This document shows positions 27,659 through 41,240 of a stretch of 64,000 bases of DNA, one piece after another. This stretch comes from Sulfobacillus thermosulfidooxidans (GTDB lineage: Bacteria > Bacillota > Sulfobacillia > Sulfobacillales > Sulfobacillaceae). Below the pieces are notes generated by a model. The model was not told where the DNA came from and ran no database searches. It saw nothing but the letters and a program-made list of their open reading frames with translations. Numbering within the stretch: position 1 is the first letter of the stretch; every line of letters starts with the position of its first letter. The translations under genes and the position numbers were made by a program. The stretch is taken from contig NZ_LGRO01000001.1 in the NCBI RefSeq assembly GCF_001280565.1, positions 372,001 through 436,000 of the forward strand, read 5' to 3'.

Positions 27659-29131
27659 TTACGAAGAAAACGGACCAGGCAAATTTTCATCCGAGGCGGC
27701 CATTTGGGCATAAGCCGCCACATCGAGAGCATATTGCGCCAAGCTCAAGGTATTGCCAGCTTGGGGATCGGGCACCACGTTGGCTAACAGCGATTCAGCT
27801 TGTGTCCACGACATGCTCGGTGTGACCCCGGCGTCTTCGACAGCTCCGGCACCTCCGTAATACGCCGAAGACGCTAAGTACCAAGACTGAAACTGTTGAT
27901 AATTTTCGGCCAGCAGTTCCGCGCCTAAAATGAGATTTTCTTGGGGGTTATGCCGGGCCCCTGGATAGTATCCCGGTAAGGATGCTGCGGTTTGCGGTTC
28001 CAGTTGCATCAGACCAAAAGCGCCGCCAGGACTTCCGGCGTCGGGACGGCCTCCCGATTCTAAGATCATTTCCCCGGCAATCCATGCCGCCGGAACTCCG
28101 GTGCGTTGACTGGCGACGAGAATGTCTTGCCACCAATGTTGGATCGCGGCTTTAATGGACGTGGGATTATACCCCGGTGTATTGCCGTTGCCGCCACCGC
28201 CTCCGACAGAAAATCCGGTCGCACTCGGCAACGTGACAGAGAGCGAAAACGTCGGCCAATGGGCCGTAATCGTGACGGGATGTTGTTGATTGACAATCAC
28301 ATCCGCGCCCCACACTGCGGCATGCGGCCACGCCGGGACTTTTTGCCCAGCGGGGATCAGCAGGGACGAGAGCATCGGCCCGTTATAGCCGTCGCTTTTA
28401 ATGGTGACGGATGTGGGCGGTTCCACCATGGAAACCGCAATATTATTGGGCACACAGACATCCTTGCCATGAATCCAAGCACAGGTGGGCGGTTTCCAGG
28501 GTACTTCCGTTGGGAGGCCGACGGGGGCACTGCCCGCGACCAGCACCCACGTTTTGGCGGTGGACCCGGAAGGATACTGCCATTGGCCGTTTTTCCAGCC
28601 GGTAGCCGGCCAGGCCGCAATCATCGGACTCGTCGATAAGGCCACGATATCTTGTTTGGTGGCATGCACAAAATCGCCGGGCGGATTTTGCGTGGCGCTC
28701 ATGAATTCGGCGAGACTGTTACTTTTGTAATGGTGCGCATCCCAATCGGCCTTGAGGACGGGCACGGCGGCATTAAAATCTTTCAGCGGATGTCCGGTCA
28801 GATGCGGATTGGGCGAGGCAAATAAGCCATGGCCATGCGTTTGATCGCTGAGCACCGCGCCATTGGACAAATTTTGGATGACCGCAATCCAGACGCTATT
28901 GGGAATGGCGGCATAGACATGGTTGGCGGCGGTGACATGGTATGACAAATTGATCCATTGATCGCTAAACGCCGGGCTTTGGGGAAAGGGAGGAGGGTCC
29001 GACGCCTGATGGAAGGCTAAGCCGCCGATGAGCATGAGGACGGGCACTAGGACAATGATGAGCAGGGGCACGCCGAATAACCCGCCACCGACAAAAGCCG
29101 CGGCCAGAAAAAGTCGACGTTGCTTAAACAT
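27659..29131 (-). CDS. VirB1-like lytic transglycosylase
   Basis: The product is 490 residues from ATG 29131, about 9 bases after AGAAGGG. One N-terminal membrane helix is followed by a large extracellular part. The C-terminal SLT domain (from about 330) shows IAGEMILESGGRPDAGSPGG with the catalytic Glu, then FGLMQLEPQTA and a late SSAYYGGAGAV. The enzyme would open peptidoglycan so that the transfer channel or pilus can pass the thick wall. Confidence 0.87.
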   Translation of the reverse strand: MFKQRRLFLAAAFVGGGLFGVPLLIIVLVPVLMLIGGLAFHQASDPPPFPQSPAFSDQWINLSYHVTAANHVYAAIPNSVWIAVIQNLSNGAVLSDQTHGHGLFASPNPHLTGHPLKDFNAAVPVLKADWDAHHYKSNSLAEFMSATQNPPGDFVHATKQDIVALSTSPMIAAWPATGWKNGQWQYPSGSTAKTWVLVAGSAPVGLPTEVPWKPPTCAWIHGKDVCVPNNIAVSMVEPPTSVTIKSDGYNGPMLSSLLIPAGQKVPAWPHAAVWGADVIVNQQHPVTITAHWPTFSLSVTLPSATGFSVGGGGGNGNTPGYNPTSIKAAIQHWWQDILVASQRTGVPAAWIAGEMILESGGRPDAGSPGGAFGLMQLEPQTAASLPGYYPGARHNPQENLILGAELLAENYQQFQSWYLASSAYYGGAGAVEDAGVTPSMSWTQAESLLANVVPDPQAGNTLSLAQYALDVAAYAQMAASDENLPGPFSS

Positions 29132-29160
29132 AGAAGAAATCCCTTCTGCTGCCAACGATT

Positions 29161-29937
29161 TTAACGACGCCGGACGACATAAATGATCTCTTGAGGAAAG
29201 AGGATGCGAATCATATCCAATAGACTCTGTTGGCGTGGAGACAATCGATGTTGGATAAGAATTCGCGATGGAGTAGACACAATATCTTCGGAAGGAATGC
29301 CTAAAATCGACGGTAACTTGGGAGCAAGAGATTGATAATGGTGTAGAAGGATAAATTGTTCCCGCGTTTGCCGGGAATAGAATTCGCGCGACAATCTCGG
29401 CTTGTCCGTATTATATTGCGCTTTTTTAATCAACGACAAGGGACCGTCCACGAGCACGAAAGTCGCTACGCCAACACGACGGACGACGTCATGGGCGACG
29501 AGGCCGGGATAGTACCGACGGCACCACTGATTGACGAGTAAGCGTAATCCTAAGCGATCTTCAAATGTCACGCGTAATTGTTCGGGATTGGGAAAATGGT
29601 TCGACAAGGGGGCATTCGAGCTGATAAATCCGCGAATTTTGGTGTGGAGAGGCAGGGATCCCAAAGGGGTGAGTGGCGTAAGGTGGTAGTGCGTAATGTG
29701 GGTGTTAAACAGGGTCCTTTTGTCCTTAACGATAAACCAAAAAGAGCGGCGATGAAGCATAGCATAATATAACTTTTGTCGCTCAAGCAATCGGGATAGC
29801 GATAAACCGAGCAATTGAGAGTTTTTAACTCGATACTGATGCATTTGCCCAATAAACATTGCGGACAAATAATAGGCCCTGTGATGAGAATGGCGCACAA
29901 CGAAACGATGCAGAACACGATCGAAAGTGATAGACAT
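29161..29937 (-). CDS. Protein of unknown function
   Basis: The product is 258 residues with CAGGAGGG before ATG 29937. It is basic, His/Arg/Leu-rich and lacks membrane helices. A helical C-terminus (RILIQHRLSPRQQSLLDMIR) could bind nucleic acid. No family is recognised. It stops 30 bp upstream of the muramidase start. Confidence 0.65.
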   Translation of the reverse strand: MSITFDRVLHRFVVRHSHHRAYYLSAMFIGQMHQYRVKNSQLLGLSLSRLLERQKLYYAMLHRRSFWFIVKDKRTLFNTHITHYHLTPLTPLGSLPLHTKIRGFISSNAPLSNHFPNPEQLRVTFEDRLGLRLLVNQWCRRYYPGLVAHDVVRRVGVATFVLVDGPLSLIKKAQYNTDKPRLSREFYSRQTREQFILLHHYQSLAPKLPSILGIPSEDIVSTPSRILIQHRLSPRQQSLLDMIRILFPQEIIYVVRRR

Positions 29938-29990: not shown

Positions 29991-30497
29991 CTACGGGACC
30001 AAATGACCGAGAACCGTCGCCACCACCGTTTCGGGCATTGACAATGGGAAACTGGACGGCCAATGAATAGGAAGAGACTGTAAATATGGCACGATTTGCG
30101 CTGGTTCCACAGGAATAAGCGATTCTGCATGAAGATAGACCTTGATAGCGTGTTGGACGCCAGAAGACAAGGGCGCGAAAGACAACAAAATGACATAACC
30201 AGACAGCAAACAGTGCTTCTGGCGTGTCTGAGGCACCAAAGGAATAAATGGAATCACTCGATGTGATTGAGCCCAGTGAGCCGCACGGTAAAGCATACGG
30301 TTTTCCTGATTGAGTGGGACATCCATTAAATACATTTGTGAGAAAGATTGACCGATGACATGCTCCCACGGAGTTAAGGATTGATGTTTGAATTTGAGTT
30401 TTGTCGGCACGGCAGAGCGCAAGCGCGGAGTGGCCGACGGTTTGTGATGCACTGACGGATGCACAATCCAATCATAGAGAGGCAGAAAATAAGCCAT
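29991..30497 (-). CDS. Protein of unknown function, first gene of the conjugation locus
   Basis: The product is 168 residues. ATG 30497 follows AAGGAG at about 12 bases; the upstream ATG at 30521 has no such site. The protein is basic, with LKFKHQSLTPWEHVIGQSFS and a hydrophobic middle (LLSGYVILLSFAPLSSGV). No family is recognised. It is the most upstream gene of the minus-strand series, immediately downstream of the noncoding RNA candidate. Confidence 0.6.
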   Translation of the reverse strand: MAYFLPLYDWIVHPSVHHKPSATPRLRSAVPTKLKFKHQSLTPWEHVIGQSFSQMYLMDVPLNQENRMLYRAAHWAQSHRVIPFIPLVPQTRQKHCLLSGYVILLSFAPLSSGVQHAIKVYLHAESLIPVEPAQIVPYLQSLPIHWPSSFPLSMPETVVATVLGHLVP

Positions 30498-30708
30498 TGA
30501 AATCCCACACTCCTTATGCACAAAAATCTAGCGTGGGTACCCTACCTTGAGGCACAAGCTTATGACATTAACAATGGAGAAAAGAAAAAATGTAGACAAA
30601 GTTGAGAGCTTCATTAGGAATCGTCGCACGATCTGAGCGTGACTTGGCCTGCTGCTGACCGAACACAAGAGACGGATGAAACGTAGTTGGGCCGGGAGCA
30701 CACAAACG

Positions 30709-30730
30709 AAAAAGCCGCTACTCAGTCGGC
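30709..30730 (-). terminator. Intrinsic terminator of the large RNA candidate
   Basis: On the minus strand GCCG-a-CT pairs with AG-CGGC around GAGT and is followed by TTTTTCG. It ends the hairpin-rich transcript and lies 212 bp before the first downstream start codon. Confidence 0.65.
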
Positions 30731-31287
30731 TCTCCTTCAGCACTTGCAACTCTGTCGGGTAGAAGATTTGGCGTGATGTCGTACGATATGTACGCCCTTC
30801 CCAGTAGCCTCTGAGGCCCCGCAATCGTTGTGGGAGGTGAAACGAATCGGGGGGTGCTCGCCTTGGAACCTGATCGGAGAGCAAAACCGATCAGCTAACA
30901 TCATACGGTACACGGGGACAGCGTGTAGTGCGTCCTCACGAACGACACCTGGAGCCGTATCGCACCTTTTCTTTACGATACGCTTTACGTACACACAGAG
31001 GCGCACGCAAGCCAGACCTGATGTTAGAAAACAGCGCGTCAGTTGACGGCTGTGCTCAAGACCGTTGGGCACTTAAAGGATACCGTCTGGATCCGATAGC
31101 GTAATTGGCTACGTCACACCGTCTCCCAAATACACCGTGTGAGCATCGCGGAATCCTTCAGAACGCTTGGGTCTTAACGTCCGAGAGCGGAATTGCGGAC
31201 GTGTGCCTGGCCCCAACAAGGACTCTCATCCTTGTCACTCAACTCTCGTAGATTGTGAATCATGGCTGCGAGAGTCAGCACTTTATG
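30709..31287 (-). ncRNA. Candidate large structured noncoding RNA (about 580 nt)
   Basis: No credible reading frame fills this stretch, yet it is bounded by a good promoter (31294-31322) and an intrinsic terminator. Between them lie many inverted repeats: ACTCTCG/CGAGAGT (31241-31276), CAAGGA/TCCTTG near 31220, ACGTCCG/CGGACGT (31178-31202), TCACAC/GTGTGA near 31114-31142, GTGCtCAA/TTGgGCAC near 31055-31075, CGTATCG/CGATACG (30955-30982) and CTGATCGG/CCGATCAG (30870-30894). The 9-mer AAGTGCTGA occurs near both RNA ends. Large ornate RNAs of similar size (OLE, ROOL, GOLLD classes) are known from Bacillota and mobile elements, but I cannot match this one to a class. Confidence 0.7.
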
Positions 31288-31293
31288 ATTATC

Positions 31294-31322
31294 ATATTAA
31301 ATAAGTTACCCTCATGAATCAA
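31294..31322 (-). promoter_or_regulatory. Promoter of the large RNA candidate
   Basis: On the minus strand TTGATT (31322-31317) and TAATAT (31299-31294) are separated by exactly 17 bases. The predicted start is near 31287, just before the first hairpin of the RNA. Confidence 0.7.
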
Positions 31323-31558: not shown

Positions 31559-31609
31559 ATATCAAGGCGACGGCGACCTCCTTCTGATCCCACAGCATGG
31601 CCTTTTGTC

Positions 31610-32029
31610 TTGCCTTATGTTAGCGGTCTGCGTTTAGGCCCAATTATTCACGAGACACGAACAGCCCATAATCTCGGGTTATCGGAATTAGCTCAAATGG
31701 CGACTCCGTATTATCGAACGTATCGACCGCATGCGGCCCGTACAATTACACCGCAACAAGTGTTTGCGTTAGAAGCGGGAAAAATGCACTCGTGTGACCC
31801 AGCTCTGGCCGTTGCATTGGCCCAAGCGTTAGATCTTCCTTGGGAAGAGGTTTTACTCTGGGAATGGCCCGTCCCGGAACAAGCACTTCCGGACTTATGG
31901 GTTACTCTAACGGGACTCGGATTAAACCCCGATCAAATTCGGGCGGCTTTAGCCTTCGTCGACTTTGTCAGGGTTTATCCGCCTTATCGCCAAGGGGAGC
32001 ATAAAAAATCTTCACATTTACAAAACTAA
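31610..32029 (+). CDS. XRE-like helix-turn-helix regulator
   Basis: The product is 139 residues if read from TTG 31610. Residues 7-75 resemble an XRE DNA-binding domain (LGPIIHETRTAHNLGLSELA, then ITPQQVFALEAGKMHSCDP and LAVALAQALDLPWEEVLLWE), although the recognition helix is interrupted by an insert. The only strong ribosome site (AAGGAGGTG) instead serves an in-frame ATA at 31559, which would add 17 basic residues beginning SRRRRPPSDP. The gene diverges from the large RNA and overlaps the leader of the creatininase gene, so it may regulate either. Confidence 0.7.
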   Translation: MPYVSGLRLGPIIHETRTAHNLGLSELAQMATPYYRTYRPHAARTITPQQVFALEAGKMHSCDPALAVALAQALDLPWEEVLLWEWPVPEQALPDLWVTLTGLGLNPDQIRAALAFVDFVRVYPPYRQGEHKKSSHLQN

Positions 32030-32045
32030 TTTTGGAGGAATCAGT

Positions 32046-32678
32046 ATGCGCTGGTTACCGATTGGGAGCTGGGAACCACATGGCGGACATCTCCCCTATG
32101 ACACCGATACGCGCATTGCCATCGCTCTCTGTCACGCCTGCGCTCAACCCCAAGATACGGTGTTGCCGGCCATCCCGTATAGTTGTTCCTTTGAACATCG
32201 GGGATTGGGCCAAGTGGTCAGTATTCGGGTCGCGCACTTCGCCGCCCTTCTCACCGATATTGTGTGGGCCCAGAGTGATCCTCTGGTCATTATTAATGGT
32301 CACGGCGGGAATCAAGTTTTAGGAAGTCTCGTCCAGGAATGGAATGCCGATGGGGCCCGCGTGTTGTTGCTCCCGGACCGGGCGCATTGGGCCGCGGCCT
32401 ATCAGGCGGCAGGGTGGGATTTTGGGCCTCACGAGGACATGCACGCGGGGGCGTTGGAACGCAGTCTCCTCCTCTATTTGGCTCCGGAAACCGTTACTTC
32501 TGAAATTCCCGCTGATGTCTCCCAACCCAATCGTCCGTATTTTTCGGCAAGCGGTATGCACGGTTATACCGTATCCGGTGTAATCGGATATCCAACTGCC
32601 GCCACGGCAGAAGCAGGACAAACAGCGTGGAATGCGTTAACCGAAACGATACGCGATGTGGTGAAAGGATGGAAATGA
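32046..32678 (+). CDS. Creatininase-family amidohydrolase
   Basis: The product is 210 residues from ATG 32046, chosen for its TTGGAGG site. The family signature is clear: MRWLPIGSWEPHGGHLPYDT with metal-binding Glu, His and Asp, VIINGHGGN in the middle, and HAGALERSLLL for the last ligand. The family includes creatinine amidohydrolase, FAPy deformylase and the peptide-maturing MftE. No mycofactocin-type partner is nearby, so the substrate is open. A GntR/UTRA regulator follows four bases after its stop. Confidence 0.87.
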   Translation: MRWLPIGSWEPHGGHLPYDTDTRIAIALCHACAQPQDTVLPAIPYSCSFEHRGLGQVVSIRVAHFAALLTDIVWAQSDPLVIINGHGGNQVLGSLVQEWNADGARVLLLPDRAHWAAAYQAAGWDFGPHEDMHAGALERSLLLYLAPETVTSEIPADVSQPNRPYFSASGMHGYTVSGVIGYPTAATAEAGQTAWNALTETIRDVVKGWK

Positions 32679-32682
32679 CTAT

Positions 32683-33399
32683 TTGAGCGATGGATACCAA
32701 CCGCGTCGGTGGGATGAGATTTTTAAGACATTACAACAAGAAATCGATCAAGGGCAATGGCCACCCGATACCATTTTTTTGACCGCGGAAGCGATTGAAA
32801 AACGGTTTAGCGTCTCGATTGCCACGGCGAATCGCGTGCTTCAAGAACTCGAAATCGGGGGATGGCTCTATGGCGCACACGGTGTGAGAGAACGTCGTGT
32901 CGTAGGCACCCGCAGTGTGTCGGATCGCACGACGGAGTTTTTGCGTGATCCAGCATGGAAACACCCTTGGGTGCAAACGCTGGCCGCTGAGGTTGATAAC
33001 ACCCCCCCAAACTGGGTAACGCAATGGATGGGAACTGGCCCACTCTGGCGGTGGAAAGCACTGCAAGGTGATGGAATCATTATCGTTGCCATCTCCGAAG
33101 GATGGTATGCCGTGGATTCTCCAGTCCGGGCCTATGCGAAAGCTCCCGGACCGAACTTTTACGGTTTGCTAGAAGCCCACTATGGGTTACTAGCCGGGTT
33201 TCAAGAAACGGTGTCTGCACGTTTAGCTGATTTTGACGAACGGAAAGCGTTTCACGCGATAGGGCGAGCCCCATTGCTTGTCTTACAAATCGATCGTGTC
33301 ACCCGAACCCGAATGGGCAACGTGATTGAAGTCGTCCGCTTGGTGGATCGGGCTAGTCATTACCACCTTCAGTATGAAGTGCCATATCGACACTTTTAG
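32683..33399 (+). CDS. GntR-family regulator with UTRA-type ligand domain
   Basis: The product is 238 residues from TTG 32683, four bases after the creatininase stop, so it is probably coupled. The N-terminal winged helix (IFKTLQQEIDQGQWPPDTIF, then AIEKRFSVSIATANRVLQEL) is GntR-like. The C-terminal 150 residues resemble a UTRA effector domain (ETVSARLADFDERKAFHAIG, then LLVLQIDRVTRT). It probably controls the preceding hydrolase in response to its substrate or product. Confidence 0.82.
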   Translation: MSDGYQPRRWDEIFKTLQQEIDQGQWPPDTIFLTAEAIEKRFSVSIATANRVLQELEIGGWLYGAHGVRERRVVGTRSVSDRTTEFLRDPAWKHPWVQTLAAEVDNTPPNWVTQWMGTGPLWRWKALQGDGIIIVAISEGWYAVDSPVRAYAKAPGPNFYGLLEAHYGLLAGFQETVSARLADFDERKAFHAIGRAPLLVLQIDRVTRTRMGNVIEVVRLVDRASHYHLQYEVPYRHF

Positions 33400-35766: not shown

Positions 35767-37463
35767 TTCCCATAAACGATGAATTCCAACGCAACAGGTT
35801 ATGCTATTTGTGATTAACAAAAAATATCTTTTTGTTCGCGAGTTTTTTGCGCTGTAGTGGATTTCGGTTTCTGCGCGTATCTCATGCAGCCGGTTTCGAT
35901 CCCGATTTCCACGAATCATTCGCCCATGGGCTATCCCCCAGATCGCTGAGAACGGGTTATGCCGATGCCAACCAGCGGCCCGTGGGGCCGCTACGAATTC
36001 CCACAATCTGTCGGGGATTCCGGACTTTACCCGACGAGCTGCCGCATCCGCTCCGGTTGCCGTTGCCGCATGCGTCCCAACGCCATTGCTAACATCACAA
36101 TGAGAGCCATTCCACACCGGAGTTGCATCTTCCGAAGGCCCCGAATCGTATGGAGTTCCAACCCGAACGAGACATCTAATCGACTGTTCACCCGTTCCAC
36201 GGCCGTGCGATGGGCATATTCCCGGGCCCATCGATAACTCGCCCGGTCAATCGGCGTAAAGATTCGCCGGTCCGTCTTTAAGGGGATCCGCATCCCCTGG
36301 GCCACAGGGCAAGTCGTGTGACCGGCACAGGATGCGCCCGCAAAGCGGGCGGGGCATCGTTTTTTGAGCGCGTGTCGGGTCTTGTCAAATCCTCCGTGGC
36401 TCATCGTGTGGACCTGCCCCGTCACGGGATCGTGACAAAATACCTCGCCCCGATAATTATAGGTCACCGTCGGGTGACTCGGCAGGACTCGCGTGGCATC
36501 AGGATCCCGCCACATATTCCGGATATCGATCACTGGCTTGATCTGGTAGGTATCCCAGCAGGGCGGCCCGTGACAGCAGGGCGGGATGGCGGTCGTGGAG
36601 ATGATTCAACAAGGGCTGCGCCCGGCTGACATCGGACACCGAGGCTTTCGTCACCTCCCACGCCACCGGCAATTCGTACGTCGCATCCACCACCAGGTGC
36701 AGCTTATACCCGAACCACTGGACGACTTTACTCCAGCGGGTCCCGTCCTCATGAACGCCCCGGTATTCCTTTCGACCGAAGTCGGCATCCACGTCGCGGC
36801 GCCCATCAGCACCAGAGTTTTTGGCGGGCCGCACGGCCCGCGAGGGAATGGCTTTACTATCGATCGCTAAACGATGACCGAAATCCGGAAGCACGGCCGT
36901 GATGTCCTCCACGAGCTGCTCAAACAGCGCGTCTATCCTGTCCTGTTCGGCCATCAGCCGACGCAAAAACCGGGTGTACGCCGATGCCGGCGGGACGGCC
37001 GCGTTGCGAAACCCACACAGTGCGCGCAGTTGGGCATTACGAGCCAGTTCCCGACGGAGGCTTTCGATGCTCAGGTGTTGGAAAACCACACCAGCTAACA
37101 CGGAATTCCACATCGCGCGGACAGGATAGTCATTGCGCCCGCGTCCGCGGGCGGTGTCTAAGTGCCGCATCAGGGCGTCGTCCGGCACCGTATCCAGAAC
37201 CAGCACGAGGCGTTCCAAATCGCCCAATTCTTGAAGATCTTGCCACGAAAACAGCGAGAGTTGTGGTATGATAGCCATGCGGGAGAGCTCCTTTCGGAAA
37301 ATTGTGGTTGGTACTTCAATTTTACCAGAGCTCGGCCCGTTTTTCTTGTGTTCAAGCGTTTTCCGGGATGATGGCACGGTTTGCCGCGGGTGGGGTCAAA
37401 TCCGCCTTCGGCCCCTGAACCCCATCGGAAAACCCACATATCGCCGTCATTTTATGGGGGAAA
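35767..37463 (-). mobile_element. IS1182-like insertion sequence (inactive)
   Basis: The element spans the broken transposase and a pair of imperfect terminal inverted repeats: left TTCCCATAAACGATG (35767-35781) and, reading inward from the right, TTCCCCCATAAAATGAC (about 37447-37463). The exact ends and any target duplication are uncertain. The element sits between toxin-antitoxin debris and the SIR2 gene. Confidence 0.5.
36027..37278 (-). pseudogene. IS1182-like transposase with internal deletion and frameshift
   Basis: ATG 37278 follows AAAGGAG. The first frame shows LFSWQDLQELGDLERLVLVL and the first catalytic Asp in RLAIDSKAIPSRA, then runs to DRHPALLSRAA. The second frame resumes CWDTYQIKPVIDIRNMWRD and ends with the catalytic Glu region EYAHRTAVERVNSRL. 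The expected segment around ADKGYD, which carries the second catalytic Asp, is missing at the junction (about 36540-36560). The enzyme should be inactive even if the frameshift were bypassed. Confidence 0.8.
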
Positions 37464-39799: not shown

Positions 39800-39987
39800 G
39801 TGTCCAGTATAACACTTGAGGGCCTCCAATTTTGTCTAGATTTCGGGGACCACTACATTTCTATTGGGTACCGCGCATCCAACGAGAATATGTGTCTAAC
39901 GAACTTTTGTTCTCATAAATATCTTTGAGATAGTTCGACGATCGACTAACAAAGAAATCGAATGATTTTACTAGTCGTCGCCAATAT

Positions 39988-40003
39988 GTTCCGATGTCGG
40001 AAA
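39988..40003. promoter_or_regulatory. parS-like site 1 (one mismatch)
   Basis: GTTCCGATGTCGGAAA differs from the six-site consensus GTTCCGAYRTCGGAAC only in the last base. It is the outermost copy upstream of parAB. Confidence 0.6.
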
Positions 40004-40370
40004 ACCTGATAAAATTGAGGAATTTTTTTTTACAATGACCAGTCTTTTAAAATTAAAAAAAGGTAGCTCCGATTTAATTAAATTAAAAACCATAAGGTCA
40101 TTGATGTGGAATGAGAAATGAAATATGTCTCTTATAAAGTCTAGAGTGTTTTGCTGCGTTCCCGATACTCATTTATTTGTATATTTTTTTGGAATAATAA
40201 AATTGCGATAAAAAGTTAAGCGCAAGAACTCGGTGCTGCTTTGATGATAAGTGCAGTCTAAGATTTTGTGTATTAATGCCACGAGTGCGCAATACGATGC
40301 GGGGTGAAAGTAAAAGTGATTAACTCATCACGCAACTATCAGTTCTGAGTTTGGTAGATCGCGCCACCTC

Positions 40371-40400
40371 CACCAGTGTTCCGATATCGGAACACTGGTG
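40371..40400. promoter_or_regulatory. parS-like site 2 within a perfect 30-bp palindrome
   Basis: The core GTTCCGATATCGGAAC is at 40378-40393 and is extended on both sides by CACCAGT and ACTGGTG, making all 30 bases self-complementary. Confidence 0.8.
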
Positions 40401-41240
40401 GGCAAGAGAATGCATCCGGATACTGATGGGATTTGATTTTTTAGAAATATCTATAAACTATATATTTTCGTATCTATCGTTATATTGTTGTAGATTAGCT
40501 GAATTAATGTTGTGGTGATAGAGCAGCCATTTTGGTGTTCGTATTCGGTAATATAGTTCGTCAAAGACTTCGCATTACCTAACTCTTCATGTATGATTGT
40601 TTCCCAATCCATCCAATTTCATTGCTTTTTAAAAAAGAAAAGTGTGTGGTTCCACGAGCAAATTCGCAGTACATAAGGGCTTATAACAATTCGCCTGTCT
40701 GGTACGGCCCCGCTTAAGATGGCTCTTGTAGCATAAGGAATCTATACCCCTTTAACGTCTAGCGATGTAGTTAGCTGTCAGACCCGTCAAATCCTCGAAG
40801 ATTCAGGATAGTAACTATACAATCGTTCCGTAATCTAAAATCGATAGGAGCGTAATCTGCCATTGGTTTGTTTTCAATTCAACAATTGTAAGATTCCGCC
40901 AAAATTAGCTAGCCGCATCAATAAGTGTCTCTATGGATAATGGGTGTGTCAAGCTAATAAGCAACCTTGAGTGACTTTGATTATCTCGTTACCATTAACA
41001 AAATAAAAAAGATGCAAAAAAAATATCGTGAACAATATCTGTGGATGAATGATGTGAACCGCTAATGGCGAAATCACGTCGTTCCTCTGCGAATATAACT
41101 ATGATAAAAAGCGCGAGAAATTAGTAGAAGGATGGCGTTTTTCAATAGACCAAAACAAACCTGCTTCTGCCACAGTCCACATGGCCGATAAAGTGTGGAT
41201 TCATTACCCATCCAGAAAAACACACTGGTTATTTTTTAAT

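Follow-up and report, generated by a model that had tools for sequence, protein, structure and literature searches.

At the head of a conjugative transfer operon in Sulfobacillus thermosulfidooxidans lies a minus-strand region that, judging from comparative sequence data, very probably represents a new family of structured non-coding RNA, with members of 590-770 nt that carry their own promoter, precede the transfer genes of Sulfobacillus elements and diverge from an HTH regulator. The window, which is the whole stretch of 64,000 nucleotides analysed here (G000:C1:372001-436000), comes from a genome of 3.83 Mb, and the RNA of about 580 nt occupies its positions 30709-31290 (-), with a putative 5′ end near 31287 as placed from the -10 box. 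A first-pass annotation of this DNA had described a new large structured RNA at this site, a view borne out by synteny, by compensatory changes, by the absence of a conserved reading frame and by the absence of any match in Rfam.

The signals that delimit the unit can be read on the minus strand. The promoter already proposed for it is there (31294-31322, -), made of TTGATT (31322-31317), a spacer of 17 nt and TAATAT (31299-31294); since it scores 8/12 to consensus and the promoter scan was set at 9/12, it is absent from the scan list. The TAAGATCTTG word and the TTTAATAT box recur in the homologue of a second genome of the genus, G003, with the same spacing as in the window. At the 3′ end, a terminator-like hairpin AGCCG...CGGCU followed by U5 (30709-30731, -) reaches -8.1 kcal/mol with its flanks, compared with -19.0 in the homologue of a third genome, G001, and a weak counterpart in G003. 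A promoter-to-terminator unit, as suggested at first, is plausible, but the hairpin that would end it is weak in the window, and the transcript may extend past this point into the operon. Between these limits there are at least seven strong local stems where the annotation had put them, such as 31276-31241, 31236-31215, 31202-31177, 30894-30870 and 30852-30817. The fold energy of this one sequence is not convincing as proof of an RNA, with z of -1.87 for the minus strand and -2.34 for the plus strand against shuffles. Neither does the AAGTGCTGA repeat, once taken as a hint of an organised fold, hint at anything: the RNA does contain it, but chance alone would give about 0.66 repeated 9-mers over 587 nt.

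Homologues of the RNA were found by synteny. The collection by BLASTN that the first-pass annotation had advised gave none in 61 relatives, plasmids and phages, since the divergence lies below the range of blastn. Relatives of the gene at 29161-29937 with 25% identity lie at G001:C92 and G003:C2, both from genomes of the genus, and the window and these two elements keep one gene order, formed by the divergent HTH regulator, the RNA, the terminator-like end, a small protein, a protein of ~258 aa and a lytic transglycosylase (SLT). In the three elements, the gene-free stretch between the regulator and the small protein measures 590-770 nt, and the RNA is separated from the first gene by a gap of 110-190 nt. 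The window RNA, homologous to L008:3530-4281 (-) and L007:3755-4528 (-), is 59% identical to that of G003 along 449 nt that take in the promoter (E 4e-14 for a pairwise search space), and the non-coding stretch of G001 shares three blocks. A covariance model of the RNA core with the P2 hairpin included (R1) retrieved only the three known loci from 154 genomes of the class, weak matches at E 0.2-0.7 having been set aside. The search based on SLT yielded many other transfer operons and no further RNAs where there was room to look, as those operons have another gene order, without the pair of small and NusA-like proteins; in S. thermotolerans, pL15 and pY0017 also show another order without this pair and no RNA. 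Reverse transcriptase/maturase ORFs of the group II intron type, carried by L059:1-1617 and by pL15/pY0017 (L067, L068), are inserted in or near the transfer genes of related elements. In viral contigs, the regulator, SLT and NusA-like profiles found nothing; the conserved-motif pattern had four matches there, judged to be chance given the size of the collection, and R1 lists only one of them, at E 1.5.

Conservation at the level of structure was followed in an alignment of the window and G003 built without regard to structure. For the RNA strand the consensus fold has a z of -6.4, and for the opposite strand one of -4.35, none of 100 column shuffles being as good, while control alignments of six protein-coding neighbours from the same pair gave z between -1.5 and +1.4. 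Over the first ~250 nt, the alignment of all three elements has a consensus-fold z of -3.8. Double-compensated pairs amount to 27 of 84. Shuffles give 13.4, with none of 500 reaching 27, and sliding the partners leaves 0-4; the column-shuffle z is a fairer measure than this count, because the structure was derived from the same alignment. Three homologues are too few for covariation power of the R-scape kind. The 3′ part aligned between G003 and G001 gives no consensus-fold signal (z +0.26), since MAFFT leaves those stems unaligned. A pseudoknot joins the 3′ elements in all three cases: an ACC-N5 loop pairs with the five nucleotides that precede the single AGGGCGYA box (N5-AGGGCGYA), through UCCCA/UGGGA in the window, UUCCU/AGGAA in G003 and UUCUC/GAGAA in G001. 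The probabilities of such complementarity by chance are 0.029, 0.0029 and 0.0022 in the same order, values that carry some selection, as the pseudoknot was spotted by eye and then tested.

These data bear on two other explanations of the region. A decayed gene, or hairpins arisen by chance in a spacer, would agree with a single-sequence fold energy close to that of shuffles, but the three elements show compensatory changes and share no frame, which makes it hardly credible, and comparison of the elements already contradicts it over the 5′ two thirds and at the pseudoknot. No reading frame is conserved among the ORFs that the four loci have in the region, those of the three elements and of a more distant one in G005, whereas a neighbouring gene taken as control gave E 7e-52; the ORFs of the region are thus not common to the loci, in keeping with the earlier opinion that no credible protein is encoded. 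Structured DNA rather than RNA, such as a transfer origin or a single-strand replication origin, would find some support in dyads located beside transfer genes on a mobile element and in the conserved fold that the opposite strand also has. It is nevertheless very unlikely: the minus-strand RNA gives the better fit, in 11 pairs only one side has changed, with G-U wobble keeping a pair that would be broken on the other strand, and the promoter and the terminator-like end flank the region in the right direction.

A detailed view of the RNA shows several conserved parts. The P1 domain (31203-31281, -) is closed by the stem GUGCU (31281-31277)/GGCAC (31207-31203), which encloses the hairpins 31276-31241 and 31236-31215 and abuts P2. 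This stem occurs at the same position with a wholly different sequence in the other elements (GAUGCAUG/CGUGCAUC in G003 and CGUAUCCG/UGGAUACG in G001), with shuffle frequencies of 0.44 in the window, not significant alone, 0.048 in G003 and 0.032 in G001. The P2 hairpin ACGUCCG...CGGACGU (31177-31202, -) is near-invariant in the three elements and followed by a conserved core, WAAG...CCCAAGCG (31177-31164, -). Another conserved core, AAGUGCCCAACGG (31062-31074, -), has the consensus UAARNGCCCAAYGG in alignments A5 and A6. The P7 hairpin CUGAUCGG/CCGAUCAG (30870-30894, -), with a conserved GUUUUGC-like loop, corresponds to helix 17 of the consensus and contains two double-compensated pairs. In the P8 hairpin (30817-30852, -) the loop motif is kept and the stem sequence differs in each of the three elements; its apical loop, ACC-UCCCA in the window, provides the first strand of the pseudoknot (30835-30831). 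The second strand, UGGGA (30803-30799), precedes the conserved box AGGGCGUA (30798-30791), both within 30791-30803 (-). This AGGGCGYA box, found in the window at 30798-30791 (-) and in L008 and L007, resembles the RfaH ops element GGGCGGTAGCGT, as quoted in PMC8955417, a resemblance only.

The conjugation locus that had been announced downstream of the RNA is real, since the minus-strand genes from 30521 to the low end of the window include those for a transfer coupling protein, a TraG/VirB4-like ATPase, a T2SSE-type ATPase and the SLT transglycosylase. The transfer operon is ~30 kb long, and the SLT of its transfer apparatus lies at 27659-29155 (-; PF01464, E 1.2e-17). In G001 and G003, homologues of this SLT occupy the corresponding position. 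The divergent XRE-like regulator is present too, in the form of an HTH gene at 31571-32029 (+), with an uncertain start codon, whose product is 45-50% identical to the same-place regulators of G001 and G003 and has a distant relative in G005. After this gene (31965-33399, +) come a creatininase-family amidohydrolase and a GntR/UTRA regulator, a pair that G003 keeps in the same order (L008:4935-6292). Elsewhere in the window, two overlapping transposase-like ORFs (36027-37377, -) are apparently, as seen by eye, one insertion-sequence transposase split by a frameshift, and for a stretch of ~1.4 kb at 39813-41238 the greedy gene list has no ORF of 60 aa. The G+C content of this stretch is low (0.37 at 40001-41000 compared with ~0.55 around).

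Two of the genes that follow the RNA may be linked to transcription elongation. The 258-aa protein (29161-29937, -) is predicted to have a NusA-like S1-KH1-KH2 fold. With its AlphaFold model (pLDDT 69), all 16 Foldseek matches at E <= 0.001 are NusA, the best at 1.1e-7, and they include NusA from the lambda N and rrn antitermination complexes. In VIA-align, residues 42-258 follow S1-KH1-KH2 in order (Z 7-8, 170-224 residues, rmsd 9-14), the large rmsd being explained by different domain orientations; RbfA is a further match for the first KH domain (Z 8.7). The likeness is a claim at the level of fold, since sequence profiles do not detect it (hhalign P 0.65); the NusA family model TIGR01953 matches above cut-off only one other gene in G000, and not the 258-aa protein. 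Residues 1-48 are modelled unreliably (pLDDT < 50) and are too short for a full N-terminal RNA-polymerase-binding domain of NusA, and no GXXG was seen in the KH region. A NusA-like profile run over the class found only the three elements, and viral structures gave no match to the NusA-like model at E <= 0.001. On the other side of this gene, the first one after the RNA (29991-30521, -) encodes a 176-aa protein with homologues in G001 and G003 and a weak motif like the N-terminal domain (NGN) of NusG. It has no Pfam match, PF02357 not reaching it, and its AlphaFold model is unusable (pLDDT 41); a four-sequence profile that includes the G005 protein aligns with NusG over NGN in register, weakly (P 0.011), a suggestive sign of a NusG-like protein.

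The fourth locus (G005:C23) has the distant regulator beside an ImmA/IrrE-like metallopeptidase, recognised from the HELIH motif of its sequence. An RNA-like leader of ~870 nt (L012:2010-2890, +), resembling that of a transfer operon, is placed between this ImmA/ImmR-like regulator pair and an ORF with NusG-like motifs. The ~870-nt region has a strong promoter, TTGACT-16-TATACT, and a fold z of -2.5, cannot be aligned with the other three RNAs and has no blastn relative in the class. Either the RNA family has diverged beyond recognition in G005, or unrelated RNAs occupy the same slot.

Altogether, the RNA may act in cis as the leader of the transfer operon, in processive antitermination with Nus-like partners encoded by the element, a reading to which we give about an even chance. 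It is favoured by the position at the operon head, the terminator-like end, the few strong terminators and the Nus-like partner. The divergent regulator would let the RNA promoter fire, and we infer that this is the main promoter of the operon; the nascent leader would fold and stay attached to RNA polymerase, and the NusA-like protein of the element, perhaps with the NusG-like protein encoded next to it, would bind and join the complex. The polymerase modified in this way would pass the terminator at the end of the leader and those inside the ~30-kb operon. The operon strand (-) of the window carries strong intrinsic terminators at 22142-22118 (-22 kcal/mol) and 10384-10356 (-20), and G003 has one of -27.8; those of the window have stems of 11 and 13 bp with T runs, one inside the coupling-protein ORF and one in a same-strand intergenic gap. 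The enrichment in terminators that antitermination predicts was not confirmed, as none was observed along the entire operon (36 terminators against ~37 expected in two scans taken together, and 5 against 2.8 in a strict scan). The leader-end terminator, weak in the window and in G003, also counts against antitermination.

The main rival of the antitermination leader is a stand-alone and stable RNA in the manner of the large ornate OLE, ROOL and GOLLD, with its own terminator and a function in trans, perhaps as a homo-oligomer or RNP, which would only happen to lie before the transfer operon. Such an RNA would be consistent with the size, the own promoter, the terminator-like end that is strong in G001, the gap before the first gene, the long-range pairs and the pseudoknot, but it seems rather unlikely when no Rfam match to those three families appears even at E 10 and when a fixed place before the same operon, beside a NusA-like gene, suggests a role in cis. 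A cis-regulatory attenuator or a leader that senses a ligand or protein, acting only on the first gene, through its read-through or its translation, and without processive antitermination, is improbable: the leader position and a terminator-like end right before a gene suit it, but the RNA is far larger than common attenuators, matches no Rfam riboswitch and would have no need of a NusA-like partner. Returning to antitermination, a wider and still doubtful proposal is that of a private elongation module, in which the ~600-nt pseudoknotted leader and the NusA-like and NusG-like proteins would make RNA polymerase terminator-resistant for the transfer operon, and in G005 the same role would fall to a second RNA of unrelated sequence.

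RNA families of this size are few. This one, if it is linked to conjugation and works with a NusA-like protein of the element, would be a new way of controlling horizontal gene transfer, and the window RNA offers a directly testable case of an RNA that would reprogram RNA polymerase over tens of kilobases. Moreover, the leaders of transfer operons diverge too fast for sequence searches, which suggests that more such RNAs are hidden and could be found by synteny. The NusA-like neighbour and the constant position at the operon head are pointers to the function of the RNA that go beyond the first-pass annotation.

Among known systems, the Rfam search that had also been advised matched no family, with nothing at gathering score for the window RNA and only three irrelevant weak matches at E <= 10; L005-L008, L012 and L014 gave no match to OLE, ROOL or GOLLD either. 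GOLLD and ROOL are often found on mobile elements. Together with OLE (PMC12286853), they are similar to the window RNA in having several hundred nucleotides and many helices, but they differ in setting. Membership in these families was rejected on the absence of a match to their covariance models, which leaves size alone in the likeness first drawn. The EAR and put antiterminator RNAs were discarded in the same way, with no Rfam match at E <= 10. They are structured leaders that modify RNA polymerase for processive antitermination, which is here only predicted, and they are much shorter than the 590-770 nt of the present RNAs, which have a NusA-like gene alongside. As for the 258-aa protein, it is similar to NusA in its predicted S1-KH1-KH2 fold over residues 42-258 and differs in having no sequence-level similarity and a short or absent N-terminal domain. 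Two precedents of processive antitermination are known at the same place in Gram-positive elements, and both are likened here by description. The 452-bp canT of Tn916, whose host is phylogenetically far from that of the window, is most likely a cis-acting RNA antiterminator in the same position, for which the excerpted text reports no element-encoded Nus-like protein (PMC11658703). The conAn system of pLS20 combines the ConAn1 protein and the conAn2 RNA (PMC8955417) and, like the system of the window, places an RNA and a protein at the start of a conjugation operon, in that case of >30 kb.
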